A stretch of 64,000 nt of DNA. Origin: Bolinopsis microptera. Lineage: Eukaryota > Ctenophora > Tentaculata > Lobata > Bolinopsidae. Each line of letters opens with the position of its first letter. Position 1 is the first letter of the stretch. The DNA lies in NCBI RefSeq assembly GCF_026151205.1, contig NC_087076.1, forward strand, positions 6,128,902 to 6,192,901. The letters run 5' to 3'. The position numbers and the translations under genes are program-made. This document shows, piece after piece, positions 12,701 through 58,800 of this stretch. Under the pieces are notes generated by a model. The model saw nothing but the letters and a program-made list of their open reading frames with translations, was not told where the DNA came from and made no database searches.

Positions 12701-15700
12701 CTATTTTTGATAGCTTCAAGGAATTCACTTGAGGAATCTATGCTCCAAAACATGTTTATACCGCTGTTGTTGTAGATTGCCTCGCAGTATTTCTTGAAGT
12801 ATTTCCTCAAAAGTTTCAGACAACAGTTAACTTGGACGTTAAGTTGTTTCGTAACGCAAAAACGGGCACCTGCAATGAACCTCGCCTTGTAAGGGTTCTT
12901 ATGAAGCTTAGGGTTCCAGAAGATGCGTGCTAGTCGCAAGTTTTTATCTTCAACTTGTACATTAAATCTCTCCTTTAGACTCTCAGATATTTTATTGACA
13001 TAATGAGTCTCGTCTTCGCTACAGGGTTTATATGTATCATTACCTATACATTCTAGAGTATTAGGATCAAAACCCATTTCATTGACAAGAGTTTTTACAT
13101 AAAACTTTTTACAAATAAATGAAAAATTACCAGAAGCTTTGTCGATACTACAAATAATGTATTTACTTTTCAGCATTTTAAGACTTCTTTTAACATCATC
13201 TTTTTCCAGTGTGTTTTCTTTTATTTCAAATGTTTCAGGAAAGTTTTTCTTGTAATATTCAATACGATTGGAAACTATTGATAACACTTTTTCCTTCCAA
13301 TCGCTGAACTTTACTTCTTTTTGACAGTACTTTCTACTTTTTGATTTTATAAATTTATCGACAGCTTCGGTAACTGACATATATATCTCATCTGGAGATT
13401 TAAATGTGGGAATTCTGTATTTACAACCGTAGGAAAGTACTTCCCTAAGTTCAACATTATCAACAATATCTAAATTACCAGTAACTACATGTCCATGAGG
13501 AGGATAATTGAAAGGGGAGGAGTGACAATCGCATGGACTACCTAAAATAGATTTAATATCAGAAATAGAAAGTTTCTTTAAGAATGAAGCATAGTTACAA
13601 ATAGAAAGACTTATAGGATCATTATACTCATAATAAATCTGTAATGGTGTAAAAGACTGAATCAAAATGGGAAGCAAATCAATGACTGAAGTGTCAGAGA
13701 AAATAGATTTTAGGTTAAGATTATCAATGAATTTGCAATTAAATGGAACAATTATAAATTCTCTATTACTGGATTCAGATTTGTTCTGATGGTATTTGGG
13801 GGAAAATGTTGAACAGAAAGAGGAACATACGTTGTAAATCAATCCTGAATTATTTTGACTCAAAGAGTAGAGAGTGTCTAAATCTGATAAGCTATAACAT
13901 TTTAATGTTTTGTATATGGAATGTTCTGAAGAGATGTTATCTTTCAGCCTGTTAATATCAGACTCTATGGTATCCAGAGACTTCTTAGGCTGAACTTTCT
14001 TCTTTCCATTCCCTCTGCCACGTTTGTATCGAGCAATCTGTCCACTAAAATAATTCATAACCCGATCTTGGGAGATGTTGCCCGTTCCTTTCTTCTTGTC
14101 ATTAAGACCAAGAGGGAATGCTGTCCCAAGCTTCTCTATCCAGTAATCCTCCAGGAGAAGTAAATCATTTTTGACATCGGTGGACATGTCAGAATCAACA
14201 TAATCTACAATCTGTATGGAAGCATCTGAGAAGACGTGACCAGGAATATTAAAATGTTCATATAAAAATGTGGATGATTTGGCTTTGACACAATTTCTGT
14301 GGCCATTGACTCTTTTATGAAGTGGTTGAGTTGTTTCTCCAACATATTGTTTTTTACAGGTAGAACAGGTAATAACATAAATAACATTATTAGTTTTACA
14401 ATTAAATATAAAATTTGTATGTCCAAAGATAAAATCATTATTAAAAGTACTGCTCCTAAATGTATTAACAGGATTAAAACTGTTGCAAGTGAGACAACCT
14501 CTACCATTGCAACATCTAAAAGTGCTAGAAAAGACATTACTAGGGGTTACCCATTTATTCAAGGATTTTGAGAAAAATTTACCATTACGTTTAAGTCAAG
14601 AAGGTAACATCATCCCTTTCGGCGTTTCCGCCTAGACCCAACGACTCGAGATAGGCCAAGGACAACGGGTCGGACATCAACCTATTGTCATGGGGCTGCC
14701 ATGATTGGGCGGGCGTTAGATGTCATGAACCTAAATAGTTCTCCCACCGACGCAGTGTAGCCTGGCGAGATTCTTCGCGACCATAAAAATCTCTTAGAAC
14801 CGGATCTTGCACTGCCGCTGTTTCTCGTACCGTAGCATGGCGGACAGCTCACGCCAGAAAATGAAATAAACAGGTAAATACAGGATAAATCAGGAGATGT
14901 ATGTACAACAACAAGACTTCAAGGAGGGCGCCCAAGAAAACAAAGATCAACCAAATCTCGGAACCAATGGCCGGGAGAGATATAAATGTAATTATAGAGC
15001 AATATCAAGAAAAGCTATCAATTATGTATCCAAATTATGTATCCAAATTATAAGAGCAAATACCGAACAAGGAATCAGTTACAATGATAATTCTATAGTT
15101 TTAATATTTAGGAATTTGGCATAAAAAACGGTGATAACAACGACAAGAATTATCTTATTTCAGGAATAATTATAAATTTGGAAAATAATCAGAAATACAA
15201 ATTTTATAAATATATATTTCAATTTGGTGCACCAATGGTTTCAAAATTTTCCTTTGATCATAGCAGTTCCTGATTGACTACAATATTTTGCTAATTTATT
15301 GCAATGAATCGTATTATTTTGCAATCGCACTACTTCTTTTTTCCAACCTTAACCTCAGCCTGGAATTACGGCCCGATTTTCCACAAAAGCTAAAACTTTG
15401 AGTCGTTATCTTGTGATGCCAGGGTTTGTTGACTATTTTTTACATGGATGACCAGTGGAAGTATAACTATTCCCAAGAAAAATACCACCATTCGTCTCAA
15501 GCCATGACAGGAATGTTGATTTTTATCGGACTTTGAAAAGCCGAACATGTACCTATAGAGCTAAAATTCAAATTTCGTGAAATTATAAGTGTAGTAGAAA
15601 TCCCAGTTCCCACTCATTAAACAGTTTTGAGTTCAATTTAAGCTATGTGCGGGTAATATTTGAATCACTTTGTAAAACTTTGACAGCAAAATTTTAAAGT

Positions 15701-25800: not shown

Positions 25801-28800
25801 GCTCTTACCCTTTCCGTGATTCATGTTTTGTTATTGTAGCTTTCAGTAGAAGGCACGCGCTGTAGCCTTACAAATTATTATATTCTCGAGATTTAATTTT
25901 AAACATTCAGCTGATTTTCATGCCTCTTGGGAAACCACAAAGTTTACTACGCTCTGGAAAGGTCTGTTAGGAACCGTGCCGCCGAGCGAGGATTCTTCAC
26001 ATTGGTCACAATTTCTCCTTGTAGTTTAACCACAGTTGCTTTAAAATCCTTCCCTTGAGGCCTGAGCCAGGGCCAGAGCAATTAGGCGTACCTAGGTGAC
26101 AACAGTTTGATTGCAAGTTGAGCCTATCTGGATACAACGCAAATACTTATTACTTTACCAATTCGCCCACCAATTTTATGTTTATTATTTTGCTAGCGCT
26201 TTTGAATATGCAGTGACGTAGTTTCTCTAGTTCGTGCTAACTGAAACCCTGACTACCAGCAGATAACACCTCACCATGGCAATGCAGACCAACATGACTT
26301 CCTTCTCCAGACGCCTCAGTAGGTCTTACAGTGTGATTACGTCGGGAGTTCATCCCGGACAGCATCCTGCCCTCCTGCTACAACCACCTCGGTCTCCTAG
26401 AGGCGCTCTTAGAGTGGTGGACAGGTAATGTCACGTGATTTATCTGGTTTAAATAAGATCTGGAGGGGGATTATTTAAAACATATAAGATGTTTATGTGA
26501 GCATAAGAAATGGAGGAAGGCTTGGTGAGTCGCCCGGTTTCAACTCCTTCTAGGTTAAAAGATTCTCGATCTATATGATATCTCACTTTGTCTGGAACTA
26601 ACGTCAGAGACCCGGTTAAATTGCACTTTTAATTAAAGATGTCCACCATTTTCATTTGATCCCCGCTTTCCTGGATGGCGTCTCGCCTTTACGCTTTTGT
26701 TCGCTTCTTTCCGTCGAATTATTACCTAATTAAGTGTATTGTGTAATCAAGGAATACGAGAGGAAGAATATATATTATATAAGAATAATAAGAATATCTA
26801 GGAATAATAAGAATATACAATTGTGATCCAATCAATCCCATTGTCGGGGAGAACAGCGCATTCTAATGTAAGATGAGACATTGGAGTACGTGTTATCCCT
26901 AACCTCCACCGGAATAACTTTGCGGATGGGGATATTTATAAATATCATGGTTCCGGTTAGTCTGTGTCTCAAACAAAAGACCCAGTCTTTCTGAAAGTAG
27001 GGTATTGTTATATAGTATATATATATATTGTTGCAGATAGTATTGGTTAATCGTCCTGGGGAGGTGCCTTTATCTGCTTTAGGTTCACTTCTTCCGCTAT
27101 GAGAGTGTTACTGATGATAATAGGCTGCCCTTATATGGGTATCACGTGTTTAAATAGGCTGCAAGACTGTGTTCTGATTGGTTAGTTTGTGTCACGTGGT
27201 GTGGATACTGTGCTCTGATTGGTAAGTTTGTGTCACGTGGTTTGAATACAGTGCTCTGATTTCACAGCGGTACTGATGATAATAGGCTGCAAGACATATA
27301 ATGAGAGATAGTTGTATCCAAAATAATGGATATCAATCATTATCCAGTATCCAGTATAGTTGGAATGAGCAACATATACAATGGTTAGTGTTACACAAGA
27401 CTCTGACCACTCCTATCTCTGTTTACAAAGCTTACTAGTCGCTATTATTATACTGCCACATCACAAATGTAAACCTGCGCCAAAACCGATCTTTACCAGG
27501 TTTTGTTCCGGAAAAACCCAACATCTTAGCAGGTCACTAAGTGTGCACGTAACGGCAGTAAACAGAAATAATGGTCGGTCGTCATGGTTTCAAATAAAAA
27601 TAAGGGAGAATATTTCAGCACCTGGTCCCTTAGGTATCCATTTCGATTAGGAGTACATAGTAGGGTCATTATTTTAGTATTTCAAATCTGGAGATTGGAC
27701 ACTCTGGAATAAAACGTTTATCCCTTACCTAACGATTTTGGAGCCCTTGAGTCAAAATAAGGTTTCTACTAAAGTGCGTACCGTCTAAGTTTCATGTTGG
27801 GAGAGAACGTTTTAAAAGTTTTCTCAAGTTTTTACCAACAAGCTGCACGTGCAGCACTTATGATATCGTGGTGCCCAGCATAATAATTTCTGGACAGGAA
27901 CTGTAATTATTAGTCGCATTTCCGGACAGTTTCCGGACGGGAACTGTCGCATTTACAATTATTAAATCAAAGTTCTAAACAAGGGATAGTTTAAAAAACA
28001 ACGCCCAAGTCTAATCTTTCCCTAAAACAAAAACTAAAAATTAAAAACTTCATTGCAATTTCCGCCAATATCTCTTGTCATAACTCAAATTACGGAGATA
28101 ATGCAGGTCAAAGATATTATTTAAATAAAGATTTCTTTTACATAAATCATGCACAATCAGCGAGAATAGATTGCTTTGGGGTCTTCCTCTTCTCCCTGGT
28201 AAGTCCAGTGTATTGATGGCAAAAATGAGGGAAGAAAACGCTGGTCCGTCAATAGGACCCCGCAAAACATGTCCTAACATTCTCCACCGACTACGGGCCA
28301 CTTTTTCTGACAATGGTTCAGCATTGCAGCGTTTGTACAAGTTTTTGTTGGAGATGACTCCTGGGTACTTTATATTCAAAATAGTGCGAAGATGTCTGCG
28401 GTGAACAACATCTAGTTTTTCAAGGAATATTTTGGGGACGGCCCAACAGGATGAGTTGTACATAAGAACCGATACGACTAAAGCATTATACAGTATTAGA
28501 CGTTTGTTTAGGGGCAGTTTATCACTCCAGGCCTTCTTGTAATTGTTAAAGGCAGCATATCCCAGGTTTATGCGACGCTGAATATCAGCTTTGCTACACA
28601 AGACGGACCCTAGAGTGATACTTTTCCTCCATGCTTCATTCCCCGACACTAATTTTCCATCACTGTCGACTTCACCCGTACTAGCTAAATAAACATGAGT
28701 GAAGTCCGTTTTGTCTTCATTGACAAAGAGGTTCCATTTCTCGAGTATAGCTGTTGCCTGGGGCAAAATAGCTCTCAAGTTGTCTTCCTCTTCATCATTG

Positions 28801-31800
28801 AAGTCAACATCATCAGCATATTCAGTGTCAAGTGGAAGGCCAGCAATAGTAATCGCATTTACAATAATAAGTTTAAAAATATAATATTATATGTATTGAG
28901 AACATAGTTACTGGTACAGTCTGCTAGTTTATTGTAGACCAAAAATTCCAAAATTCAAACAGCATTCCGAATAACGCAATAAAATGTGGTTCTATATTTA
29001 ATATACCAGCATGTTAACAGATATATTAGATGCCATGCAGTCACGTACGTTGTAAATGTTACAAACTGCATGGTACCAAGGGTGTGGTCTGAGAGTTTCA
29101 TCTGGCATATATCATTATATCTGTGACTCCAACATAAAGAGTCAAAAAACATAGTACCGTCCAGTAGCATGATCTATCAGCATCAATGTCATTGAAGTCA
29201 CATTGTCGATTTAGAAAAGTATATACAACGCACGAAAAAACCACTGTCACGTAATATTGCTATCCTTCTCGCTTACCATCCGTCCAAAAAGCAAGAAAAT
29301 TATAAAATACTCGAGAGTATCTATTGAGGTACGTTAAAATGTCTAAAAGACCAGTCCCAGCTCACAGCGTAATATCAGCTAAAAGTGATAACATGTTAAT
29401 TGTTAAACGCCTGCGGAGTAAGATTTCCCATACGAATCATTGGAAAAATTGTCGAAGCGGATCGCCGCAATGCAGTCGGCAGCATGGAGGCAGTTATAAA
29501 AGTGTGCGTATCAAGATCAAGCAAGGTCGCTAACACTTATCTCCCATAGTGTTACAGGCTCAGTCACAGTGTACTATTATAACCGTTAATACAAGTATAA
29601 GTGTTATCTGCTTGTAGTAGTAAGGAACAGTTGCAGAGTAACAATGGTGCTTTTCAATGAGTTGCTCACGATCGGATGAAGCTTATATTTGTTAATCCCG
29701 CTTGAATAGTTTGTTCATTTTTTCGTGTTGGTTGTGGTTTTAAGTACAGTTCATCAATCATCACTGTAGCTGTGAGTTTCTTCTGCTCCAGATCTCACCA
29801 CTGCTTATATATAATGGGCAGGATCACCCGAATAAAGCCGTGGTAAGTGAGACACTGTGACTTACATTGTAAGTTTGTTTGTAAGTGTGAGGGACAACAC
29901 TGTGACTTACATGTTTGTAAGTGTGAGGGACAACACTGTGACTTACATTGTAAGTTTGTTTGTAAGTGTGAGGGACAACACTGTGACTTACATGTTTGTA
30001 AGTGTGAGGGACAACACTGTGACTTACATTGTAAGTTTGTTTGTAAGTGTGAGGGACAACACTGTGACTTACATTGTAAGTTTGTTTGTAAGTGTGAGGG
30101 ACAACACTGTGACTTACATTGTAAGTTTGTTTGTAAGTGTGAGGGACAACACTGTGACTTACATTGTAAGTTTGTTTGTAAGTGTGAGGGACAACACTGT
30201 GACTTACTTGTTTGTAAGTGTGAGGGACAACACTGTGACTTACATGTATGTAAGTGTGAGAATTAACGACGTTAGGGCACTCCTAAAGTCCTAACATCAA
30301 AACAGATGAACACTATAGCTGTTTATATAGTCTGCCAGGGTAAAATGGACTCGTGTTGTAAATATCTTTCACATTAAAACAGCCGTGAAACGTATCAGGC
30401 AGGGTATTATAAATCTTAAACAAATTTTACAGCTCTATAATCTATATATATAATATATACAATACATAAAATATATATGTATATAGGTACTGTATAAATA
30501 ATCTATTTATATAAAATTAAAATATTTCATTGCTGAACTTCTACACAATAAAAAAACCGGTTTTGACTAGATCCTCGTAATTCTTTGCATCATTAATTAA
30601 CATCAATTCTCAAATTATTTGTTATATAGTAGTGTTGAAAGCATTTAAACTAATATATAAAATATATATGTATATGGGTACTGGGTATTTATAGGTTCAT
30701 TATGGCAGCTTACTTCATCCTTCAGCAAGCATCTGAGGACAGGTGATTCATATTTAGGAATAGGTACGTTTGCCGCGAGTTCCTACAGGTGTGACCAGTT
30801 TTTAAACTTTGGAGATACCCTATCGATACAGTATAGGGGTTTTTATTGATTGGCTTATGTGAATAATACTTCATTTGGATGAAAAAGGCTGCATTGCATT
30901 CGATCTTTCATTTGGTTTTGTCCCGAACGCCTTTCGTGGCGCTCTTAAAGTTTTCCTGCTATGATCAATTGGGGCACCAAAGTGCCAACATCGATAATTG
31001 AGAAAGTTGCCGTGAAACACCGCCAGTGAGTACACCGATTTGTAAGTTTGTAGAGGGCCTTACAAAATAGTAACAAATTATGACTGTCATTATTTAGATG
31101 CTTTATATTCGCCGTATTCTGATCAACATCCTTCTCCTTTGTTGTCCTTTGTCAGCGCCAAGCCACGAATATCAGCGACAGTTTCTCAACCAACTTGCAA
31201 CATTCACTATAAAAACACGTGGTAAGTTAAACGGTCTTCTTCTAGAACACTCGCCACTTATTGCCCTCATTCTTCATGAATAAGATTTATTATCCGGCAA
31301 TCTCCCTTGTGTTACCTGGGTTTAAGCCATAAGAAGCGGTCTTCTCCGAGTTATGAGAAACTTTTGTGAAAAAAGTGAACATGTAAACAGTGAATAATGC
31401 CCAGAATTAAGTAGTTCATCTTGGCGTACGAATACGAAACAATGAGGGCGGATGACTATGAGTTCTCATTGTCTGTCAATCAATCTATACATAATAGATA
31501 ATACGAAGATAATACCAGTTCAATCTCGTCCTATCACTATTATACTGCTTCACTGTTGCATGCTCTTCTTTTATAAAATTGTTGTCGATCTGCCGTTTTT
31601 CGCCGTATTGTCGCATGAGAACATTTGGAACCCTGGCTTGTCGAAAAAGAGGGCCTAATTCTCATTGAATTTCATTGATTTTCATTGAATTTTATTAATT
31701 TCCAGTGATCTCATAGTTAAACTTCATTTGACAACACATCTTATCTTCTTATCTTATCTTATGAGGATTCGTTGCGACGCAACAAGGCCATCGAATGAGT

Positions 31801-40800: not shown

Positions 40801-43800
40801 ACGTTACAAAATAAAAATAAAAATCTCGGGAAAAAAAGAGGGATATTATTATTAAGAACATGACTAACAATGACAGCCAGGAGGTTCACTAGTGGTTCAC
40901 ATTCTCTCCACCTAATTGTTACCTGTTTAAAAGCCTGGAGGACCTCCTGTCTCTGGGAGAAGTGTCTGAGGAGAAGTTGGAGAGCCCCGGACACCAGGTC
41001 CAGGTAGTCGTGCATCGCCAGATGAAGGAGGACCCGGAGGAAGGTTTTACCCTGGCATCCGTCCAGATCTAACTCGGGACAGTTCTCACTGGTGGAGACG
41101 CGGGTTTAGTTTAGGGAAACAGAGTGGACCGTTCAGAAGATACTAGAAACGAAAAACATCTGATTATAGAAACCATTGTACTTTTATTGTACACATTACT
41201 TACCTTTCGAATATCTTTTCGGCTTCTGGAATTATGGAACTCATACCAATGTCGAACGCTGAAAAAAAGAACTTGTTACTCATAAAGAAAATACAATTTG
41301 CGAAGTATTATCATGAACCTACTTTACATTCAAAAATTGTGAAGACTGAGGTATAAACACAATGTTTCAGCTTCTTAGTCCAGACACCAGGGTCGCTGTG
41401 TTAATAGTTCACGATTCAAGAAGAGTAGATGATAATTGGGATCGTTGATGGTCACCAGGAATCGTCCGTGTGAAGATTGCTTATTGAATTTAAAATAATT
41501 GAGCTTATGCCAAATTTAATTTTGGAAATTATAAGTTGGTGGTGTCTTCTTTTCGTATAGAATGGAATAAGATGTTTCTTGAAACTTTTCTTGTCAATTC
41601 AAATTTAATGATTTCAGAACAACATCGAACAAGAAAAACATGTCAGACATTTTGCCAATTAATCATAATATAATCACGAAATTATTTTTTAACTAAGTTC
41701 AAATCATCAAACATCACGGTAGTTTGTGTGCGTGTTAAGTTGTACCAAAGATATTTAAATCAAAAGCTTTTAATCCTGTAATTTCTAAAAAAATTAAAAA
41801 ATTATGCATCTTTTATTTTTTCAATATTCGTTTCAAATTGGGTTCTTGTGAACGTGCCTGAATCGCTCATCACCATCACTTGTACTTGTTCAACAAAGTC
41901 AACTGTATTAACCATCTTCGGAGATTCAGAACCATGTTGAGATATTTCAACTTCGTGGCTTGAAGAAATTGAATTTTCATCAATAACTGCAACCACAAGG
42001 TTGGGAACTTTAGATTTCCCTTTAGAAGCCCTGTTCCGCAACTTGTCAACCAATGGAACCGGTTTAACAGGTACACTGCGAGGAAGTGTCTGCATTGGGA
42101 TTGAATCTCCTGTAGACTGGTTAGACATCGCAAGAGTTGTATTCAAAGTGGCTTGTCCTGGTCTAGGTCTACGCCTGAATCTTACGCACATTTTTGATAA
42201 AAGGTCACCAACAGTGGTGTCATACAACAGAGGGTTTATGACGGAGTTAATTGGAAGGATGAGGGTCGAAAAGAACGGATAGAGGTTGGAGAGCTCCAAA
42301 ACTTTGGTGTAGTGAAGAACGCAAATCAGAATGAGAGGGATCCAGCAACAAAAAGTCTGTCAGGATTATGAGCGAAATCTTTCGTTGCAGCTTTTGATTT
42401 CTTTTCTGCATGTCTTTGTTTCCAACATTGTTCGAAACACTTTTCGTAGATTGAGCAGAGAAGAAGTGAATGAAAATGTAAGAAACAGTGATGATGACAA
42501 AGCACATGAAATTGAATCCAAGGATGGCCCAGATGAAGCTTGCTTGTGGATCGTCGTTGTCAGCAAAAAACTTGAAAAGACAAACGCCGTCATTGCCATA
42601 AAAGTGCTGTTTCTTTCCAACCACATCAGAATAAGAGCTGAACATATCACGGACTAAAGGTCTTATTTTGTCCCAGCTGGCCCATTTGTCAGGCCAGGTC
42701 TGAACACTAAAATATTCACTCAAAATGGCCAGATGTTCTTTTATGTTCGGAGCACCAATGAACAAGGGAACGTCTTCATAGTACAAACCATTCACGAAGA
42801 AATCTTCGAACATATCAAATAACGGTGCCACCGCGATGAGTATTGAAATGGTAATAATCCCGATGACAAGGGCCAGCAGCTTCATCCGCGTTTTCATCGA
42901 CAAATGGCGAGGTGCAAAGACGGATCGTATGCCAAGAAGTCGAGAAATGCTGAGAACAGTCATTGATATGAGCGATATTTCAGATCCGAAAGAGCTCATC
43001 ACACCTAGGGTTGCACACTGCCAGCTCGTTAACCAGGCAAACTCAGACTTACAATACATTAGCCTGTCATTGTTCAGCCTGTATTGTGTACTGATCACAC
43101 CTATAGCCACTAGATAAATTCCCATCAAGAAGTCCCCACTGAGATGAAAAATATCAGCAATTTGTTCATCATCGCAGCTGCAGATTTAGTTCCCTCTGAA
43201 TTCATAGATAGATTTTACGATGATGACAAAGTTTGCAAGGCAGGCCAAAACGCCAATAATCCATGAAATTATGATGAGATATATTTGGTCCACTATGTCC
43301 TTAGTGCATTCGTCGTTACATTCATCACTCAGGTCAAGGCAGTCTGGACGACCGTCACATTTACTAGATCTCGGAACGAAATCTCCATTACGGCACTGGA
43401 AATTGTTGTTACAAATTTCTTCGTCCGATTCGTCGCCGCAGTCATTGACCAGGTTGCAAACTTTACTGTACTCGACACAGAAACCGTTATCGCAACGAAA
43501 AAAGTTGTTCTGCACATGCACGTTACCTTTCTTCGAGACGATAAACGCTTTGGATGTGGTAAGTAAGTCATTATTCAAAGCCATAACATGGCTAATCGTA
43601 GGAGTGTCTTCAATATTAGAGCAGGATGTTGGGTCTCCAAGCGGTGTCAGTGGGCAAGGTGACTTGACACACTGGTCACTACAGCTGAGGTAAACGTAAA
43701 GTTCACCAAACACGCTCCCACAGTCTATCCCTCCGATCTCGGTCGGCGTATAGTCTCCTGACTCACACCTAGAAGAGGAAACGGATGAGCAAACTCCTCT

Positions 43801-46800
43801 TCAACACACCCACCTTTTAAGAAATTCAAATCCCTGAGTCCTGGCAAACAGTAACTGAGGTCCTTAGTATTATTTTCATCTTCATGAACCTTTGAGAAAA
43901 CCACAGCCACATTTCTTGATACCTCGCATATACGATTTTCATTCCCGCAGCTCTCTATTCTATCACACACATAGGACAAATCAATGTAAGTTCCAGACGC
44001 GAAACACTTGAACGAAGCGAGGTCCCGGGCAGCGCAATCTTTCTCTTTTTGTACCCGCCGCATCTCATTACCAGTGCCACAGGTTTTGGGAAAATTAACG
44101 TCAACCTCATCACTGCCATCCTCACAGTCCTCTACACCATCAAAGACCCAACTGTAGGGAATCATACGGTCCCGATACCCTTTGCCAATGAATTTCCTTC
44201 TGCAAGTGAACTGTGAAGTCATCTTCTTGCAGAGCATCCTGTTTTCATCCGCGCTCCCATTACAGTCGTCGATACCGTCACAATTTTGATGCTTGTGGAT
44301 TGTGCATTTTGATTCAGGTGAATCGCACAACTTATCAACGCCGTCATCACACAGCGGTGGCATCGTTAAACTGCGATCAGTACACACGAAATGAGAGGAC
44401 ACAGTAACAGGCTGGGCCTTTTTAGAGCACTGTAAAACCTGGAGTGTCATATCTGCGCAGTTGTATTGCGAATGGAAATCATCTTATCACATACTTTTCC
44501 AAACAGTTCACTTTCGACAGAACATCTGTTTAATTCATTCAAACCTATCTTTTGATCTGTATTTGAATGTTTTGATCTGTGGCAAGAGTCGAATTGGTCA
44601 CCCTCATCCAGGCAGTCCAGTTCATCATCACCATGGAGGCAATCCATAACACCGTCACAAATCCAAGTGGGGGGCACCACTCTCGAAACAGATCTGACCT
44701 CCAATGATCCTTCAGAGAAAGCATAAGGGTGGTCACACTTTGTGCCGTACTGATAGTCATTGCAGTCACTTTCATCGTCACACCAAGCACAATCACACAC
44801 ATTGTTGCACTTGTCATCTTCTTTGTAATGTATTGACCCGGAATTGTAGCACAGTATTTCATCAGTCTCAGAGGAGTCTTCACAGTCAGTCTCATCCACT
44901 TCAGAATTGTCACAATCAAGTTTTCCGTTGCAGCGGGTGGATAAGATCATTGCGTTTCCACTTTTGACCTCAAAGCCTGCCTGACAGACATAAGAACTGC
45001 AAGAGATATTGCTGCTAACAAAGATTTCTTCATTCTCACAGCCCAAAGGCCGATGACCACACACCTGATAAAAGGAAGGGTCATTTTTACAGAAATCCGA
45101 GAAACGAGTTGAATGACAACTGGTCTCCAAAACACTGTAGTACAGGTCACTCCTCGGACATCGGTACACCAGCTTCGTAGGCACGTCTGGGTGTTTGCAT
45201 TGTGTTTTCAGGTAGCCATTCAAGTGGATATCTTCGCAATTATCTGCATTATAGCCACACCAAAGGTTGACTGCCTCTTCTTCTTTGCAGTCATGATTTC
45301 TGTAGTTGTACGAGGGGCAATCTACATCCACTCCAGGATTGCACTCGACATCGTCCAACAGGAAAACGTATCCCTCTTTCAAAGTCGCGTCTGATATAAA
45401 CGGTTCATACATGTTGTTGGAAAATGCATCAACTTTATGAAAGCCCATGTACCGGCAAATAGAGTCGGCCGTTTCCAAAGACATATCATCATCACAGACA
45501 ATTCCCATCCTGGATTTGGTCTCGGACTCAGGTGAGTTCTCCCACCGCAATTCCGCAACTAGCAGACCAGCAGCCATAGAGAAGTCCTGAGTTGACTTAG
45601 CGTGAACGTCAGACATGAGGTGAAAGTGCAAAGTGTGCTCCTGATCATTATAACCACACCTCAGAAGTATATCTTGGTCGTGAGAACAGATGCTGGGTTC
45701 TCTAACTATGTAGTCACATGAGGAGTTCTCAAAGCACCTGACTTCATCAATTATGATTTTTGTGTCGATGAAATCATTTCCATCGTTAAAATGGATCAAT
45801 CCTACGTTGAGTTCAAAGCCTACGAAGTAATCGTATCCCATTTTTTTGCACAGAACATCTCCTGACGACACATTAAAGTTTTTTCCACAGATTGTGCCAG
45901 ACATTTTAGCTCCTTCCAGAATGTAACTCCCGGACAAGACACCGTAGTATTCAACTAGATCCATTTCATCATCTCTCAGTGTGTAAGAAACTTCCAAGGG
46001 AAGCCGCTCGTGATAGCACTTAGTTGTGAACATGCTGACTTTTTCCCCACATTTCTCGAAGTTGGTAGAGCAATCTTCTAATCTTGAGTTAACTGATGGA
46101 CAAGCAAAAGTCGTAAAGCAGTTGTCAAGTAGGAAGTTTGGAATATATTTTGAATCGAATCCATCTGTATCCAACGCTCCTGAGTATCCTAACGATTTGC
46201 AGGCTATATAAGCGAATATTTCTATGGAGTCCACGTTTAGAGTTTCCCTATCGCCAACGACAAAATTCTGATGTTCACCAATATAGTTTCCATTAAAATC
46301 ATGATTCGTCACCATCTGTATCAGTGACCGCTGAGATTCTTGGCCTGGCGTTTGAATGATGCCTTCTTTTTCATCATACATTTTCAACTCGTGATGGTGT
46401 TTAGTACAGACGATCTTTAGTTTAAGTTTAGGGTGATAATTATCTCCTGATGGTAGATCAAAAGTACACAAGTCTAGAGATTCTGATCCTTTTGAGCAAT
46501 CGTAAGACATAGCTACCACTTCATAACTGTTAGCATACTCTCGCTCATAATCAACAGAAGAGTGTAAAGGTATATCATCAAACCCAGAGAATGCTTTGCA
46601 AAGGGATTTAGCAGTATCAATGGCAGTATAATCATTGGCTAAATAAAAGCCACCATTCTTGTTCTCCGTCACTTTTCCATCTGGTGCTAAGATGCTGTAA
46701 GAAATGGTCGGCCTAATTTCAACTTGCCAGGGTGAAATTTGATTAAACCTGTCATTTCGTACATTAACATTTAAAAGATTGGTGGAACAGTTAACTTTTA

Positions 46801-49800
46801 TACCAGAGCATATGTCCGCTGACACAGGATACTGAAGATCGTACCCACAGCGTTCACTTCCTGTTGCTTCAGAGCACCGTGATGAAATCATCACCCAGTC
46901 CACAGCAGAGATATTATATACAATCGTATATTCTGTAAACCCTCTTTCAAAGCCAATTTGTTTACAAGCTGTGGAAATCACATCATCATCATGATCACTG
47001 CTAAGTAAGGCTGTTAAAGATACCGGACCAGTCCCATTTCTGAACGTCACCTGAAGAACACCAGACAAACTTGGTACTGCAGCAGATTCGAGACCGTGAT
47101 CCCAGAAGCTGAACTCAAGTTCAGGGTCATGACAAAGCAATTTGATAGCACCTGATTCACACTCCGTAATATATCTTATGGTACATCCACCTTCTCCTGA
47201 GCAACCAGACAAATCAGCCCACAGTTGAAATCCTTCCATGCCTCCGGTCACTATTTCGTATTGATTTTCAGAGCTAAAAAAGCCGAACCACTCACAGAAT
47301 GTATGAATCACCTTTTCATCACCAGTTGTAGTTGTACTGCAGATTGGAATGTGTAGGGAGGTATTCTCAAAATCACGATAAGCCGAAACGAACATGATAC
47401 CGTTATTATTCACCTCCACTGAGTCGGAGTAAAGATAGAGTTTTGTAGGAATGAGCTCGGGTAAACAATCTAGGAAGTATGCATATGGGCAGGTTAGATC
47501 GTTCGATCGCTGAAACCGGCAGTAGTTCTCCTCCATGTCACAGAGAATTTGTGAAACATTTCCCTTCGCTGTCATTGATTTAATAACATTTTGATAGGGA
47601 CCTTTAGCAGAAGTATCAATTGCACTTAGCCCGTAGCCAGTGCTTAATCCCATGAGATCACAGAAATAGTTTGCAAAATCTCTTGCCACAGAATCATCAT
47701 GTGGCGCACAAACCAGTCCAATCACTTCCTCGGAGTAGTTGATAACCATCAGACCATTATATGATGCCAGGCCTCCTTCTTTATCTACAAGGCCGAGTGG
47801 TCCAGTCTTTTCCTTCATGCATTCAACGTAATATACGTAAGTTAATACAGTTTCGATGAAATTGAACGTGCAGTTGGATTGAGAGGTGCATTCATCAAAT
47901 TCGAGGATACCATTTTCTTCGTATAAGTTGTGATCATCCAGTTCACTGAGGAAAACCTTTCTCTGCTTATACGCTTTTGGGTACCCTAACGAGAAGCAAA
48001 CACGATCAGCATCTGAAACTGAATCCAATCGAACAGCCCAGAGTGAATTGTTACTTTTTCCTTCATAAAGAATAGCCTGAACGTAACCAAAATGGGAATC
48101 TGTGGGTTGTACAGTGTTATCCGTAAGTCTAAAAACCAATCCGGAACACACCAAAAAAACATCTTCAGAGTGATCACAATCATGGTTGGTCGTGTAATGG
48201 CATTCTGAGAATGTAGGTACACGGTCAATGCTCAGCTTGGGGCACTGAACTTCATCCAGTACAATGTCATACTCATGATTCTGCTCTGGACTGGGTGTTC
48301 CTCTGTTAGGTGTAGTTGTACGGTGATAGTTTGTAGAAGGCTTTTTTGTAGGGGTCTTTCTTGTTGAACGTCTCAATGTAGAACTGGAATCATCATAAAG
48401 GATATTATCGTTTATGCTGGGGATATCGAAAGTTGAGGGCGCCTCTGTAATAGATGTGGCACGGCGTGCGCGCCCGTAACTTGTGGCACGGCGTGCGCGC
48501 CTGTAACTTCCTACTTCACTGTACCACCTTGTGTTGTAAGATGCAGAGTAAAAGAATCCCATCTCCTGGCAAATTATGTTGGCAGCTGAATCTGTGAAGG
48601 AATCATCACACACCGTTCCAGTTTTGTTTCCATTACTTTCGGAGTTGTGGAGTGTAGCTAACAACAGGCCATGGTTTACAATTCCACTGTGCGATTCGTT
48701 GCCGTCGAGCGAAAATTGAATCGAAAGTTTGGGATCGGTCGAGTTGTCTGAAGAGGTGCAGTTCAAAACCAATATTTGCTCTATTGGGCAGTTGCCAAAA
48801 GTGACTTCACATTCACTGAGCCGAGTGGCAAAGCTTGGGTCACACTTAATGTTAGAGATGAATATGATGTGTTTCAAAGAGTCAACAAAAAAGTTGTCTA
48901 AGAAGTCTTGTTCAAAAATGGATCCTAAGTTGGTGTAGGAATCAGAACCACAAAAAATACCAGTAGCTGTCCATGTATCAACTCCAGAACAAATTAAAAT
49001 AGTCTCAGGTTCGTCATCGTTCAGGGGTGAGAATTGTTTGTTCCCTTTGTTAACACCAACAGCAATCTCCCAGTCCTTTAATACTTCCTCATCTTTAAAC
49101 GATTCTGCTACATTTTGTGTCACGAATTCAATGTCTTTCTCTAAATCTACACATGACAGCAGCTGTACATACTGAACACTACAACTGGTAAAGCTGACAT
49201 CTTCATAACAATAACTGTCATCATTAAAATCAACACCACTGCAGGGCTTTGCGTTGAAGACAGAAGTTTTAGCTAACATCCCAAGAGTCGAATATGCACT
49301 TCTTGGATCGTCTCCCAGCGTTGCATAAGCAGCAACCGCATCAAAATTATTATACTTGCAGATTCCATTCAACTTCTCTTTCGAGAGGACCTCATTGCAG
49401 ACGAGACCGTGCTTCGTGAGACCATCTTCGTCCTTGTATTGAACAGTAACAGCAAACAAGGGAGAAATTTCCAGATAATCCGAATCGTCTTCAAAGTCAA
49501 AGATTGGGAAAATGCTGAAGAAAAAAGAGTCCTTATACATTGCCCTGCTGCACTTGATCTTTAAAAAGTGGCGCAAATTGCAGGCACTTTCGTTGGATTC
49601 ATCGAAGAAGCTGTAAACATCTAAAGAAAATCCGCCACCGTCAAATCCAACATGTTTCTGGAACTCGATAGGTATGCAGATACTAGTCTGAGAAATATCT
49701 TCAGTTAGGGTGACAAATGATATTGAATCCAAATCCATATACTCAAACTTGCTACAAAGTATTGTGTCAATTCCCATGGAAGAGATTGCAGCTGTAATTG

Positions 49801-52800
49801 TCTCGATATCGTCATTGTTTATACTGTTTGCACCATTTATGTAGGGATAAAGGATCTGATCAGCAACAGGGCCGTTCTCCAGCACCAAGATTCCCTCACC
49901 ATCCACATAACCTTCCAAACTTTTCAAGTTCCAATCAAACAAAGAAGCCCATTTCTCTGTGCTAGCACTGCAAGTCACGATAAAGAATCCCATGCAAACC
50001 TCTTTGTCATCAAGACGGTCAGCCCTGCACCTGTAGTCAACTTCGGAGCAGGAAACTTTGTAAAAGAAAGAAAAATGCAGCTCTGCGCCCTCTTGCCCAT
50101 AAGAAGGTTGAAAAGATTCAACTTTGCTGTATCCTAATTCTGTGCATGCTGCCACTCCTATGAGTATGTCACTGTGACTATAAGACTTTGGATCAAAGCA
50201 AGCAATACCATGTTCTTCTTCATCTTCGGTAACGGACACTGTTATCATCCCACGTACAATGAGATCTGTAAGCTCAACTGGTATATGGTCATTTTCTCCT
50301 TCTACTTCATCAAGACCAAAATGAACAGCTGGGTCTTCAGGAATGCAAATCAGGACCATGTCGTAGAAGTGATCGTGCTGGTAAGAGAACAAGTCTTCTC
50401 CGATATAAATGGAACACGTTGTGTCAATGCACCTGACAGGATGTGCAGTTAGGACTCGAAGTTTGTTCACGAACTCAAAATCATTTCTTCCGCGTGCAGG
50501 TTCAGCAGCTAGGAAACCTTTAGGGTTTCCAGCACCAACACACATACCATAATTTTGGTATTTTCCTAGCGGATCCCAAAGGATGGTTCCTTCGACTTCA
50601 AAAAACAACTCCGTGTTTGTAAGCGCCATTGTTCCTATGAGAATCCCATAGGAAGAGTCAGAGGTGGTAGTTGTATGATTTAGAGAGGTGGTGTTTACAG
50701 AGCTTATCTGGATACTCACTTCAACCTCACCATCCAGTCCTCTGATGCCAATCTGGGAATCATAAACACACTCCATGACCACATCCTGGCTGTGAGCGCA
50801 TGCTGTGTTCCTCTTTACCAGACACTGGTCAAAGGACCGTGAGTACACCTGGCACTGCACTTGCTCATACAACACCCTGACGTCTAGCAGCTTCAGTTGG
50901 GCTGTGTGCCAGAACCCCATGTTAGCCTTGAACCCTGATGCCATGTGGAAGTCGAGCTCTCGGCACACGATATCCGCTGCATGGAGATCGAATTCATCAG
51001 CACATACTGTACCGAAAGCCTGGTCATCCTGACCGGGGTTCTCCACCACCACCAATAGCCCGTGTCTTACATCGCCTCCTGGAGTCTTGGTGTTCCTTCC
51101 CTGGTTGTCCCATAACTCAAACTTGTATTCAGCTGCTTGAGTTAACTTTAAGGTGAGGTGGAGAGTTGCCCAAATCAGAGCAGTGAAAAAGCCTGAGAGT
51201 TCACTCTTCCTTGACATTTTTCTTCACTAGAATTCTTTGATCATTGTAGCTGCAACGATAAGCAAGTTTACTTCAGCAATGATGATTGTGATTCAAAGGC
51301 AAATATATACAAAGAGTGCTATTATTTAAAGTTTCTCAATCATGTAATGTATCTCAAACGGGAAATGTAATAGGAGAGTCGGAAGATAAATACGACTAGT
51401 AACTTTGTCACTGAGAAACTTGTGATATTCAAGCATAAAACCACAACAACAATTCCAATCAAACAACAGTTCCAAATAATGTACGATGCATATTCTGGTT
51501 CCAAACCTTACGACAAAATACTGATATTGTCACAACTATAAGTATATTTTCTAGGTGCGTCTACTTAATGTTAAGGGTGGAGATATTGTCACAACTATAT
51601 TCTCTAGGTGCGTCTACTTAATGTTAAGGGTGGAGATATTGTCACAACTATATTTTCTAGGTGCGTCTACTTAATGTTAAGGGTGGAGATATTGTCACAA
51701 CTGTATTCTCTAGTTACGATTACTCAGTAAATTAAATAAATGTAAATTAAACCTTATTATATATAAAGCGAGACTGACACAATGACAATAACTTTAACAC
51801 GATTTTTCCGCGAAAACCGTGAGAGATATCTGATATAATATTGTTGAAACTTTTTCGGCTGGGTCGAATGCTTTTATGACCACGGTCTTTTGACCAGTAT
51901 GAAGAAATGAAAAATGTACCAAGAAAAATATGTCAAAATCACTAAATAAATAAGTATCGTTGTTTCTTGACACCGCTTTAGATTTAAATGGGTTCCTGCT
52001 AAAACTTTACTTTTATATAAAGCTCAAGTCAACGAAAACTATTTCTGGCCTGACGCCATGGCAAATTTCGCTTTTTGCTGTATCATGATACAGACTTCTG
52101 GATAGGTGAAACATAACCGCAATTAAAATATTAATTGTGAAGAAAATTAAGCATCAACTTTTAGAGATCCTTATATTTTGAGTTCTTTACACAATGACAA
52201 AGACGTTCGGTAAAATGGGTAAATTATCTTCTGGAGCAATGGCGAAACGAATGCTCCGATACCCCCGCTATGTCGACAAAGATTTCTTGCAAATGGATTA
52301 AGAATTATATAATTACTTCAGTTACGGACAAGAAATGGATTCGGTAATTAAAGAAAATGAGTTGTTTCGATTCTGTCCTCACTATAAAATATTCTATAAT
52401 CAGGACAAATAGTCACGGTTGAGTAAAAATAGCAGCTGCCAGTGCCCTAATCATAAAATATATTGAAATCAGAAGATTTAGTCATGTTCTGTAAATGATA
52501 ACAGCTGCCTTCATCATAGTACATGACGTACTAAAATCAAAAGAAAAAGCCCTCTCATGAACATATTGTTTTGATTCTGTCCTCACTATAAAATATTCTA
52601 TAATCAGGACAAATAGCCACTGTTAATTACAAAATAGCAGCTGCTGGTGCCCTAATCATAAAATATATTAAAATCAGAAGAAATAGTCATGTTCAGTAAA
52701 TGATAACGTTGCCTTCATCATAACCTGTAACCACAGGACCCATCCTAGGTATCTAGGATCTAACCGAATCAACCATCGTTGACTCTCCCTGTATCCTAAT

Positions 52801-55800
52801 CTAATCTAGATGACCCAAATCAACCATCGCTGATTCTCCCTATAACGACATGCCCCAATCCGTGCTCACCAGGATCCAACCGTAACTGGTCCTGGTCTCT
52901 TCTGGTCAGTCATCAATGACCCTCTATCGAATAGGGCAAACTCAATCTGACCTTTTTGACCTTTCCACCGGACCTTATATAATGTTCAGTTCCTAGTTCT
53001 ACCTACCGCCCCTCCCTTCGAGAAGGTTCCTGATACCCAGGTGTTACTTAGGTGTTACTTAGGTGTTACCCAGGTGTTACTCAATTAATCCAGATTTTGA
53101 GCCTCACCAAAACTCAACCAACTTTACTTGGTCAACCCTGCTCGCATATTAATATGCCCTTATTAACATACCACGCAGCTTGCTACAAACCAAGTCTAGA
53201 CTCTAGACCTCCCGAGAAACGCGGCCCCTTGCTCCGATCCTAACTGGAGGATTGGTTACACATCGGAGGATGAGTCACACCTATGCTGGCTTCCAGAAGA
53301 ATTATTCTATCAATTGCTAAGATTATAAATCTATAATATAAAACTTAACTTATCTTCATCAATAATAGTAATACTACAAATAGTCACGGCTTACTAAATT
53401 GTGATATATGCCTATAATTATGTAATTATATAATTATATAATTATGTAATTATTTAATTATATGATTACAACTGTGTTTTTATCTAGCAAAAGGGCTCTA
53501 CTAGCTGTTGCTAGGAGCATTATTATATATTATAATTATAGGGTAAAACTGCTTCCCCAGCTGAGAAGTTATGAGCAAAAACTGTTTTGTGTTTTGGTCA
53601 TGTGAATTGTGAAATGCCAACTTCTGATAACTGTAAAAAACAGTAAAAAGTGTGCAATTTCTTTCATTAAGACAATTTACTAAAATATAGAACAAATTTT
53701 GATCTACACTTTTTTGATGTGGTACATTTTAATCTAATCAGCTAATATTCTATTCGTAAAGTTTTGAATAACCAATTCCTAGACAACATATTATACGCGT
53801 ATTAGAAAGTTGTTGTTGCGTTTTATTCTCTTATCAATGAACAAACCTAAATAATGAGAACTTATCATGTTCTTTAAATATAATATATTCAGCGTTCTAC
53901 TGGTATGTCAGATGAATATTAGAATGTTGTTACGTACTTATTGTAACAAGTGGTACCACATTACGCTCTACTCGACAAACCATGTAGCAGGAAAATTTCA
54001 AGCCAAATTATTCACCAGCTCAAGACCGAACACGAACAGTAAAGCACGCTGATGAAAAAAAAGAAAAAAAAACAATAGACTGCTCCTTAAATCATCGCCT
54101 CCCTAATTGTCTCCTTAATTAGCACTTGCTCCAGTACTGAGCACATGGCTATCGGTTACAGCTGATGAGCTGGGCTTTAAAGGATTATATGTAGACAGTA
54201 AACAAATGCTAATGTGCGGGGTAATTGTGAGAACAATGACTACGTCTTCGTGGAGGAGGGGTAGTCCTCAGATCTTGAGTAAACATGCATCACTACTCAG
54301 GGGGGGGGGGGGGGCAGTCCTCAGATCTTGAGTAAACATGCATCACCATTCAGGATAAGTTTTATTCTACTGAAATAAGCTCAATTTAAGGGACAATTAA
54401 GGGACTGTCACGCGTTGAATTGATGGATATCATTGCGTAAGAGTTAAGACTGGCACGAAATAAGCCACTAATCAACCAGCGGTACAACAGCTGGCCTTTT
54501 CCATATAAAACACCTTCATAACATTAAATTAACTTCAGTGAATACGAGCCATGCAGGAAACAAAGAAAAAGGCGTCCGGTGTGAAGCTCTCTGACACGTG
54601 AAACCTGTGAAAGCACACCACATGTCCAGTGTGAAGCTCTGAAAACCAGTGAAAGTAAACCATATGTTCGGAAACAAACTTCATCTCGTCTACACTTTTC
54701 TCGTGTGAAATCATTAGGCGGTATGTAATGAACTGGTCCAAGCGAGAACGACAGTTGAGAGTTTAGAAGGGTCATAAATGTGTCGTTTCAGAGAAGAGAC
54801 GAAACTTAGGATACTTGAGCTGGTCCGTGGTCGATCTCAATGGGTATAGGACACTGCGGCGGAAGTCACTGCGGCGGTGTACAGTCCGGCGGAGGACGGT
54901 ACAGCGGAGGACGGTACGGCGGTACTTTCCAAAAAGGTTGGACGGTACGGCGGATCACATGACACCCACTTTACTTTGGACAGTAAGGCGGCACTAAAAA
55001 CTGTACCTATAAGACAGACCTAGCACTGCTAATATAACAAAATCGACTAGCTTTAAAAAGATATATTTTCATCTTCGTTACTTCGAAATTAATTTTAATT
55101 AAAATTAAATTGGATAAAGTTTGATATATACATTGTGATTGCTAAGAACAGTTCTTGTTCCACTTTCTGGTTCGTATCAGATCGCGTCTGGTCTGCACAA
55201 CTGTGGTTAAGCGAGTGCATGATGAGCTTGTTACGGTGAGATCTCATATCACTGCGCCGAGATGCAATGGGTAATAACAAGGGCATGAGAACACGTCACG
55301 AGGGATCGCATCCAGGAATCTGATCAACCGTAGCCAAGAAGAGAGGTTGCTCAGTGAAACGTAGATAATGATAGAGGCAAACAGTATATAAAGCGGATCA
55401 AAGTTGAGGAGAGTATCTCATTAGCACTACCATCTCCAGTACTGCAACACTACAACAGCAACAACGATGTTCGATGAAGATATTAGATACGGCGAAGGTG
55501 GTCAGAGGGAGAACTGCTAACAGTTCCAAAGATAGAAAGCCGACTCTGGATGGACGACAGGCTTGGAGGTGCGTGAAGAAGAACGACAGATGCAAGGGAC
55601 GACTCTACACCCTCAACGGATCCCTGGTGTCAGTCACCCAGCCTCACAACCACAGTGCCGACATAGCTGACTGCGAAGTCCGAGAAACCCTCTCCCAAGT
55701 CCACGATCTGGCTGCGACTACGATTACTCAGAACCCCAGAATCTACTGCTCCGTTACTGGCTGGCTGTCCCAGACTGCTCGCTTCCTCCTCCCCAGTGAA

Positions 55801-58800
55801 CAAGCGGTGAAGAAGCAAGCTCAGAGAGCCCGCCGGAACGAGAACCCTGTCCCTACAGCTCCGACGAACCTGGCAGACCTTGAACTGGAGGAGGACGACT
55901 GCATGTCTCTGGCTGGCGAACCTATGCTCCAGTTTGATAACAAAGACGACGAGCGACGAGTTATCATCTTTGGGACGGAGAAGAACCTGCGAGCCCTGGA
56001 GGACAGCAGCTCTTGGTACGTGGACGCGACCTTCTCCTCTTCTCCTCAGCTCTTTTACCAACTCCTCACCATTCACGCTGAGATGGTCAACTTCAACGAG
56101 GACGCTACCTGGGTCTTCCCTTGCATCTACATCCTCCTCACCCACAAGGATACCCCCATCTACAAGGAAGCCTTCGAAGCCCTCGACAGTCTTGGCAACT
56201 TCTCTCCAGACAAAATCATGGAGAGAACCCACCGAAGAGGAAGAAAGCTCACAGCGACAAGGACAGGAGGATTCACCGCATCGTGCAGAACTACCACTCT
56301 TACGTAGATGATGTCTTGACTTACCTGGATCCGCTCAGAAGTGTTATGTGAATTATTGATTGCTGTAACTTCTTGATAATGATTTGTGGGATTTAGATAT
56401 TATTGCTAATGCTATTGAGTGTGTCAAGTTATATTAACTTTTTGATTTTCAACAACTCAATATTATCGATTTACATTGTCTGCAAAGCCCTGAATAAAAA
56501 AATGAACAACTAAACTAACAAGAATTATACAAAATGATAAAGAGAAAAGAAAAAATAAAACTTATGCGAATCTAGAACAAAACTTAGAAACAAGTTGAAT
56601 GTGTAAGTTCTGTCTTAGGTACAGTTTCTAGTAGTAGTACCGCCGTACTGTCCAAAGTAAAGTGGGTGTCATGTGATCCGCCGTAACGTCCAACCTTTTT
56701 GGAAACTACCGCCGTACCGTCCTCCGCTGTACCGTCCTCTGCTGTACCGTCCACCGCCGCAGTGACTTCCGCCGCAGTGACCGGTTCCCATCTCAATATG
56801 ACAAGAGGGAGATTAAAGTGGTTAAGATATTCAAGTATGAGAACTTGCAATGAAAGAATTTTCGCAGCTGCATGCACTCACTAGAGTATTCTGTACGCAA
56901 TCAGGTAACGAATAATACGCAATATTTAAAGCTTAAATCAAGAATTGCGATATTCTGGGAATAAAGCCAGGTGTCTACAATGAAAAGTGAACTTATCCAT
57001 GTCCTATATTACGAGAAATTTCTGAAATTATTTGCACCTGGCTCTCCGCCTTTACTCCGTAAAGAAGTTAGAGTCAGCTCTTTTTCATTTGAAGAAGAAT
57101 AAGCCAATTATCTTTTGTTTTAAGTCATATTAAGCAGATGGTCATTTTTATATTGCAGGTCTTCGTTCTTATGAGCTGATACGAATGAAACTGTTTAAAA
57201 GTGATCAGAGAATCATATTTGAAGGGGTGTCTTAAAAGTCTCAACCATTCTTAATTAACATATCTCAACATATCTAACATATCTCAACTGCTACAGAAGA
57301 GGACACACTCACAGCTTAGGAGCCACTCTCATCTTATTAAACTGTTCCACTGTAACTGTCTGATACCGAGATTAGTAACACTCCTAAGAGGGCTAGATAC
57401 CGAGATTAGTAACACTCCTAAGAGGGCTAGATACCGAGATTAGTAACACTCCTAAGAGGGCTAGATACCGAGATTAGTAACACTCCTAAGAGGGCTAGAT
57501 ACCGAGATTAGTAACACTCCTAAGAGGGCTAGATACCGAGATTAGTAACACTCCTAAGAGGGCTAGATACCGAGATTAGTAACACTCCTAAGAGGGCTAG
57601 ATACCGAGATTAGTAACACTCCTAAGAGGGCTAGATACCGAGATTAGTAACACTCCTAAGAGGGCTAGAAGAGATTAGTAACACTCCTAAGAGGGCTAGA
57701 AATGTACAAGTTTGTCTGATACCGAGATTAGTAACACTCCTAAGAGGGCTAGAAATGTACAAGTTTGTCTGATACCGAGATTAGTAACACTCCTAAGAGG
57801 GCTAGAAATGTACGTGTTTGATGATGTGAAAGCTGGAGTAGACAGCTTTGATGGCATTTTATTGTTTATTAAAGGACGCGTGGAGAGGAAGAGATAAATG
57901 AATTTATTTAGGATAAAACGTAAGGAGCATGAGCATAGAGAACTGCTAGGCATCACTCGAGATTCAGCTAGTATTACCCACCTCTATCTTCCGGAAGGGA
58001 GGGAAATTTTAGCATAACAATGTCTAATCTAACAATGCTAATTTAACAATGCCTGATTTAGTAATTTGCCCTAATCCCAGGTTGAATATATTATACAGAA
58101 AACCGATTAAAGACAAGAGATAGGATGGCACATGCACAGTTTATCACAAAGCAAATATTGTCTATCTAAGTATCCCTTGGTCTAGTTTATAATTACCACG
58201 GAGGATGGAAGACTTAAAGGTGATGTCGGTAAAACAATGAGGCCCAAAGTCAACCTGGTCTCCAGCCAAATGACTCCAAATGACTCAGGCTACCCCTGGA
58301 GGGTATGGTACTAGATACATGACCTGGAGTATGGTAATGGGAGAGTATGGTACTAGACACATGACCTGGAGTATGGTAATCATACCACAGGTTTACTGTT
58401 GGATAATATGTGACCGGTGAGCCAACAAATCACAGTTTGTCTAGACAAAGGAGATAAGGACTCCAGGTGCCACCTAGGTTCACAGATTCGTAAAAAGTGT
58501 ACTGAGGGGCTTTTGTTGATGTCGTCAGTCGTGGTCTTTTCCTAGGCAGTATATATATGTCTAGCTCGTTTTAAAAATTGCTATTTGATGTGCTCAATTT
58601 CAGTTCGGGGGGAACTTAAATTTGCGTCAAAGTTTCCTCATTGAAAAGGAACTGAAACAGTTAGCTAATAAAATAGATCTTACAGATAAAGAACCGTACT
58701 TCAAAGATTTACAAACACGCAACACATACACTATACAGAGCTCAATGAAAGGCTCAATAAGAGTATTAATAAATCCTGAACTTAATTCTTTTAATCTGCA

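Follow-up and report, generated by a model that had tools for sequence, protein, structure and literature searches.

The minus strand of a 64,000-nucleotide stretch of the Bolinopsis microptera genome (contig NC_087076.1, positions 6,128,902 to 6,192,901; hereafter the window) carries a receptor locus at 41802–51217, in which a signal peptide, an SRCR array, LDLa cores and a seven-transmembrane (7TM) domain are all present. The explanation considered best, although by little more than an even chance, is that the gene belongs to a class A receptor family expanded in ctenophores, with a 7TM domain of the LGR/relaxin-receptor clan and no leucine-rich repeats (LRRs). This member would carry a signal peptide and about 15 SRCR-like modules in front, would occupy one exon after retroposition or loss of its introns, and would owe its frame changes to indels in the assembly. 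The receptor family is regarded as more interesting than the single window gene. On a further reading, the window gene would be the extreme form of that family, an intronless receptor with 15 SRCR modules, a proposal that is tentative and more doubtful than probable.

Architecture of the receptor locus

The locus, whose features all lie on the minus strand, begins with an ATG at 51217 and ends with a stop codon at 41802–41804. Its uninterrupted open part covers 6.8 kb of the 9.4 kb and corresponds to an open reading frame (ORF) of 2258 amino acids (aa) at 44447–51223, with the first ATG at 51217, which according to the ORF reading and Pfam holds the signal peptide, the SRCR array, a Cys module and the first LDLa cores. 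It is followed by four further ORFs (44483–43725, 43800–43186, 43185–42247 and 42359–41802), and about five apparent frameshifts fall within the last 2.7 kb. An earlier sequence-only reading of the window had described a gene without introns in one continuous stretch from 51217 to 41802. The common strand and the absence of any need for an intron in the 6.8-kb part stand; the single reading frame does not, with about five breaks after 44483, and for the frame-broken last 2.7 kb short introns are, as discussed below, very improbable. The signal peptide claimed by that reading was found by inspection as about 28 aa at 51134–51217.

Fifteen consecutive SRCR-like segments (M1–M15) occupy 45257–51133, or aa 31–1989, as judged by Pfam, shuffle scoring and profile comparisons. 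Their bounds were set by eye, each segment ending in hydrophobic-x-hydrophobic-x-Cys, and they measure about 110–140 aa, except for M7, which with its insert reaches about 200. Four are canonical, namely M1 (50768–51133), M7 (48146–48754), M14 (45656–46012) and M15 (45257–45652), and the other 11 are degenerate. In a Pfam run on the five ORFs at E<=1, the SRCR model PF00530 matched five stretches of the 2258-aa ORF with an E value of 6.9e-36, and SRCR_2 reached 1.4e-9. The segments were also scored with a model built from 10 other SRCRs of the genome plus M1, M14 and M15, with the segment under test excluded, against a null of 1000 shuffles with the cysteines held in place. Thirteen of the 15 segments, and nine of the 11 degenerate ones, scored above the shuffles at an uncorrected p<=0.031, and the Fisher combination over the 11 degenerate segments was 5e-12. 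M2 (p 0.45) and M10 (p 0.48) received no score support against these shuffles. Since segments 331–406 and 1160–1245 climbed in an iterated SRCR search after entering its model, all counts were taken from the shuffle scoring only.

Profile comparisons point in the same direction. When a profile of the 11 degenerate segments was searched against the PDB, the first six of the 15 matches, with weak E values of 0.016–0.56, and eight of the 15 overall, came from proteins which we take to contain SRCR domains. The same degenerate-only profile aligned with a profile of eight SRCRs of the genome at an hhalign probability of 79.8 and an E value of 1.5e-5. A profile including the canonical modules gave 41 PDB matches, presumably all SRCR-containing; with canonical modules inside, these are no independent evidence for the degenerate segments. 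The dozen or more SRCR-like modules of the earlier reading thus became 15 segments, 13 of which, rather than one or two, scored above shuffles, and on sequence and conserved cysteines (PF00530 and those 13 segments) the array is assigned to the SRCR superfamily. The insert in M7 (48290–48511) is a low-complexity stretch of about 75 residues in which a basic motif recurs (RRARRATS / GRARRATS); by eye, this motif could be a furin-type cleavage site.

M15 is followed by a Cys module (GYLKTQC...) and the first three LDLa cores (44450–45256), a region common to the relatives of the gene, and then by further LDLa cores, four by pattern and one by eye, together with a family-specific Cys region spread over two reading frames (43300–44447). 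The seven LDLa cores found by pattern and the degenerate one seen by eye agree with the eight or so modules described earlier. Pfam reported LDLa in four stretches over three of the five ORFs, the stretch in the 2258-aa ORF being under the cut-off. The 7TM domain at 42220–43290, with a long second extracellular loop, has its frames broken in the TM1–TM2 loop and in TM6, and a cytoplasmic tail was read from the ORF at 41802–42219.

The domain search proposed for the translation thus recovered SRCR and LDLa, whereas Pfam gave 7tm_1 only sub-threshold, at 28.7 bits against a cut-off of 30.5 (ORF 43185–42250). More was obtained from a family profile, an alignment of 14 relatives and the window ORF searched against the PDB. 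Its leading matches were LHCGR (6e-28), FSHR, RXFP1 (7tmw; 1.3e-25), TSHR and 8w1z (7.1e-16), and the next of the 97 matches, rhodopsin, followed at 1.2e-7. The window ORF spanning TM2–TM6, used alone, matched eight PDB sequences, which were LHCGR, TSHR, RXFP1 and 8w1z. By these matches the 7TM domain belongs to the LGR/relaxin-receptor clan, yet Pfam gave no LRR, be it at E<=1 for the five ORFs of the window or at E<=0.01 for the large exons read from four relatives (L001, L018, L021 and L022). The LGR/GRL101-like character and the lack of visible LRRs noted by the sequence-only reading were both borne out, and the gene is classed, from its sequence, as a putative LRR-less, LGR-clan, GRL101-like receptor. 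At the end of TM3 the family reads LSxxR, which keeps the R but lacks D/E, and its members have NPLLY; in the window, NPLLY sits in a different frame. Coupling to a G protein is predicted. Identity as an Adhesion G-protein-coupled receptor (GPCR) was considered and rejected, as no GPS or GAIN model matched the five ORFs in the Pfam search and the 60 profile matches listed out of the 97 are all class A receptors.

The receptor family and the origin of the intronless copy

Related loci were sought in the whole genome (264.65 Mb, 232 contigs). A first query with the TM part of the window gave 476 first-look candidates, from which 127 loci were scored, and a second gave 571 candidates, 109 of them scored and 19 new. 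The family thus numbers at least 146 loci, spread over 13 contigs, and 40 of these loci have another one no more than 20 kb away. An open frame of at least 850 aa was found at 99 of 127 family loci, and in the relatives whose large frames were read, a single exon encodes the Cys module, the LDLa modules, the second Cys region and the 7TM domain. In the favoured explanation, the family ectodomain would consist of a Cys module, about eight LDLa cores and a second Cys region, followed by the 7TM domain. Several ionotropic glutamate receptor (iGluR) genes (L025–L027 and others) also have open frames of at least 900 aa, so that a large undivided exon does not set this receptor family apart. The best PDB matches of one of them, L026, are the Mnemiopsis receptor ML032222a, which points to a ctenophore genome; a COI search for the species gave no match.

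SRCR modules stand in front of a few relatives. With 150 of 344 SRCR candidates scored, same-strand matches lay within 10 kb upstream of 6 of the 127 loci, the window included; as controls, same-strand matches within 15 kb downstream occurred at 1 of 127 (exons of the next family gene) and other-strand matches at none of 127. Exon limits read from the DNA indicate that in two genes on contig C7 the large exon is preceded by separate exons with apparent SRCR and TSP1 modules, and that a related gene on contig C5 shows one Sushi and one SRCR frame in the same position. In a tree built from 24 rows of the 7TM domain, the window gene groups with L001, L014, L017 and L018 (98/96 support; a long-branch warning applies). 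The SRCR-bearing loci included in this tree belong to different clades, which may mean repeated gain, or loss, of SRCR modules. Among neighboring observations, the family members L010 (contig C13, about 13.04 Mb) and L011 (C13, about 8.50 Mb) have open frames of 1695 and 2315 aa, with cytoplasmic tails that are repetitive as far as fetched (e.g. DQDDIGQGKKTGNP in L011). L019 (contig C11, about 9.76 Mb) has a 968-aa frame with one SRCR, repeated Cys-rich modules that by eye are TNFR/ephrin-receptor-like, and a C-terminal TM-like segment.

The receptor locus lies between two exons of an inositol 1,4,5-trisphosphate (IP3) receptor gene on the same strand. The upstream exon (62268–62537) corresponds to residues 747–821 of the IP3R1 chain 5gug_A and the downstream one (40938–41105) to residues 1045–1094 of chain 5xa0_A. 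The surrounding intron-rich gene, with which the earlier reading had contrasted the intronless 6.8-kb part, is therefore the IP3 receptor. Relatives, as far as splice sites can be read from the DNA, appear to carry one SRCR per exon. In L021–L024, all nine SRCR frame ends found consist of C, three or four codons and G|GT in phase 1, and a phase-1 TTTCAG precedes the Cys module in L014, L018, L021 and L022 (by eye in the last two, where the acceptor did not pass the pyrimidine filter). Besides the window, four of 20 relatives gave a hit with the pattern for the junction motif, and the remaining 16, which gave none, are not part of the comparison. In the window neither the G|GT at SRCR ends nor the acceptor is found, and M15 runs directly into the Cys module, as in a spliced message. 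The intronlessness of the window gene is probably derived: as relatives seem to have one SRCR per exon, the window copy, nested in the IP3 receptor gene, probably represents a retrogene of some age. Its source would be an SRCR-LDLa-7TM gene with introns, from which it would have come, by retroposition or by losing all introns, to lie in an intron of the IP3 receptor gene, long enough ago that no close parent was found.

Frame changes and competing explanations

The frameshifts are most likely residual indels of the long-read assembly, a view that is favoured, although not strongly. Five relatives, taken from 19 translated GPCR loci, were used as tblastn queries across the breaks. Near 44480, 43740 and 42353, three of the five continue across each break within about 5 residues, the other two giving no match that reaches it, and the breaks for this reason resemble indels and not introns. 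An apparent TAA at 43186–43188, in the TM1–TM2 loop, is flanked by opposite shifts near 43195 and 43130, and the neighboring frame gives a family-like start of TM2, which makes two opposite frameshifts likelier than a nonsense change; no nonsense substitution then remains, and inspection of about 890 codons with the shifts allowed for revealed none. The 7TM domain of the window has one private change at 42 otherwise invariant sites (0–4 of 41–45 in the others), keeping 41 of 42 against the other 14 rows, and four at 62 nearly invariant sites (0–10 of 59–66 in the others). As a yardstick, two of three iGluR genes inspected contain one frame change each, which could be real there too. The apparent constraint on the 7TM domain and the breaks in iGluR genes together make assembly indels the likeliest cause. 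For the B. microptera assembly, wtdbg was the assembler and pilon the polisher (PMC10232365). No second copy or haplotig that could settle the breaks was present among the scored matches.

Several results weigh against the favoured explanation. AlphaFold models of the degenerate modules M10 and M12 reached a predicted local distance difference test score (pLDDT) of 43, too poor for use, and Foldseek gave no match at E<=0.001. For L001, L014, L017 and L018, no ectodomain match was obtained by tblastn (E<=0.1) in the 4–10 kb of upstream sequence covered. At the locus itself, neither a poly-A tract nor a target-site duplication was found beyond shuffles, and in the rest of the genome the SRCR array matches nothing better than a stretch of 33% identity over 197 aa with seven stops inside; since no poly-A, duplication or parent was found, the introns may have been lost by another route. 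Further results on this side are the position of the breaks, the short frames of some family loci and the presence of intron-like stretches at the frame changes, each of which lends itself to a different reading of the locus.

With all five breaks in the last 2.7 of 9.4 kb, a uniform distribution would give a chance of about (0.285)^5 = 0.002 (a hand calculation made post hoc), and random assembly error fails to account for such a position. If the frameshift near 44480 is true, translation would end at 44447 and yield a soluble SRCR-LDLa protein of about 2256 aa, the 7TM part being a young, untranslated relict that gathers indels. This unlikely reading would explain why the 6.8-kb SRCR part is open and why none of the five breaks precedes the first new stop, and it agrees with a 2258-aa ORF that has, by inspection, a signal peptide and no TM segment. 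It sits poorly with the unrelaxed 7TM residues, the lack of nonsense substitutions and the similar single breaks in iGluR genes. The last point aside, the same evidence weighs against the idea that the whole retrogene is a young pseudogene, no longer used, which is quite improbable: the five or so frameshifts speak for it, as do frames below 850 aa at 28 of the 127 family loci, from which dead copies may be common, but 2258 stop-free codons, with no closely similar SRCR array elsewhere, argue for selection until recently.

Least weight is given to two explanations that take the frame changes near or behind 44480 as boundaries. Short spliced introns behind 44483 would be compatible with the stretches of GT..AG, 40–200 nt long and preserving the reading, that exist at all four frame changes (23, 64, 5 and 20, with no chance expectation computed), including one of 65 nt at 44494–44430. 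They are very improbable in view of the relatives that continue across three of the breaks, of the big exon of the relatives examined, which has no intron there, and of the fact that an intron of at least 40 nt would delete sequence aligned to coding sequence of the relatives, conserved cysteines included at the first break. That an SRCR gene and an LDLa-7TM gene lie end to end is equally hard to credit. No scored SRCR match occurs within 10 kb upstream of 121 of the 127 family loci, and the change of frame near 44480 could mark a border; yet the Cys module and three LDLa cores, which belong to the receptor exon in relatives, are in frame with M15, and in the relatives on C7 and C5 this region is immediately preceded by SRCR frames.

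Relation to known receptors and other elements of the window

RXFP1 and RXFP2, the type C1 LGRs, share with the window a 7TM domain of the LGR clan, as seen in the match to 7tmw. Their ectodomain combines one LDLa module with LRRs and is not known to contain SRCR. Activation of RXFP requires the extracellular LDLa module (PMC5468325). In GRL101 and other type C2 LGRs (Lymnaea GRL101, arthropod LGR5), too, numerous LDLa modules precede a class A 7TM domain of the LGR clan (PMC8286064, PMC4079206). Lymnaea GRL101 possesses six LRRs and twelve LDLa modules (PMC8286064), whereas the window gene, in which no LRR was found, has 15 SRCR-like modules, another Cys region and a long second extracellular loop. 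Within ctenophores, the receptor CKHR is likewise of the LGR clan (PMC4079206), but its ectodomain consists of 20 LRRs, and the section on CKHR describes neither LDLa nor SRCR.

SRCR domains before a 7TM domain, as in the window, occur in Adhesion GPCRs of Amphimedon (PMC4302439) and amphioxus (PMC2246102), the latter also with LDLa; these are Adhesion-family receptors, unlike the window gene with its class A, LGR-clan 7TM domain and no GPS/GAIN match. Choanoflagellates have Rhodopsin-family GPCRs with LRR and LDLa, the LDLa preceding the 7TM domain as here, and the word SRCR is absent from the main text of that paper (PMC12716839). The 55 SRCR genes of Mnemiopsis include multi-SRCR ectodomains, some with LDL modules, similar to the window; 7TM is named there in a legend for the C-type lectin panel only, and the text covered contains no SRCR-LDLa-7TM protein (PMC11797021). 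For a sponge, SRCR, LDLa and 7TM are named in one figure legend, whether or not for one protein (PMC8242945). SRCR in Adhesion GPCRs, LDLa-rich LGRs and LDLa with a Rhodopsin-type 7TM domain in choanoflagellates are therefore already known. Among the records listed by a literature search that covered few subscription papers and no supplements, none was seen to describe an LGR-clan 7TM domain preceded by SRCR-LDLa arrays, or the ctenophore family.

The window gene is a plausible candidate for an innate-recognition or adhesion receptor, as had been suggested from the sequence. By analogy with RXFP, SRCR and LDLa biology, its SRCR/LDLa ectodomain would bind a multivalent particulate or polyanionic ligand of microbial, prey or matrix origin, and the LDLa/Cys region near the membrane would relay binding to the 7TM domain and a G protein. 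Repeated exposure of Mnemiopsis to Vibrio changed 12 of the 55 SRCR genes, 8 of the 12 upwards (PMC11797021). A GRL101-like receptor is enriched in sensory tentacles of starfish in comparison with tube feet (PMC6267866), which makes chemosensing as good a guess as immunity. With SRCR, TSP1 or Sushi modules in front of some of its LGR-clan loci, which number at least 146, the family would supply candidates for recognition receptors that couple to G proteins directly, and would exemplify exon shuffling onto a hormone-receptor-type 7TM domain without LRRs. Within it, the window gene would serve as a clean test case, since it seems to consist of a single exon and has both a large recognition array and a 7TM domain of known clan.

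Other elements lie elsewhere in the window. On the minus strand, 11824–14595 is a single ORF of 924 aa with GIY-YIG at aa 70–116 (Pfam E 1.4e-5) before motifs that by eye are reverse-transcriptase-like (YVDDL), although no reverse-transcriptase model matched it in Pfam at E<=0.01; we take it to resemble a permuted, Naiad-type Penelope-like retroelement. Also on the minus strand, a 278-aa ORF at 28053–28886 looks by eye like a reverse-transcriptase fragment of a long interspersed nuclear element (LINE), with no Pfam match at E<=0.01. On the plus strand, inside the IP3 receptor gene region, an ORF at 55408–56307 contains a FLYWCH zinc finger (Pfam E 2.8e-6) and presumably resembles a MULE-like transposon protein.

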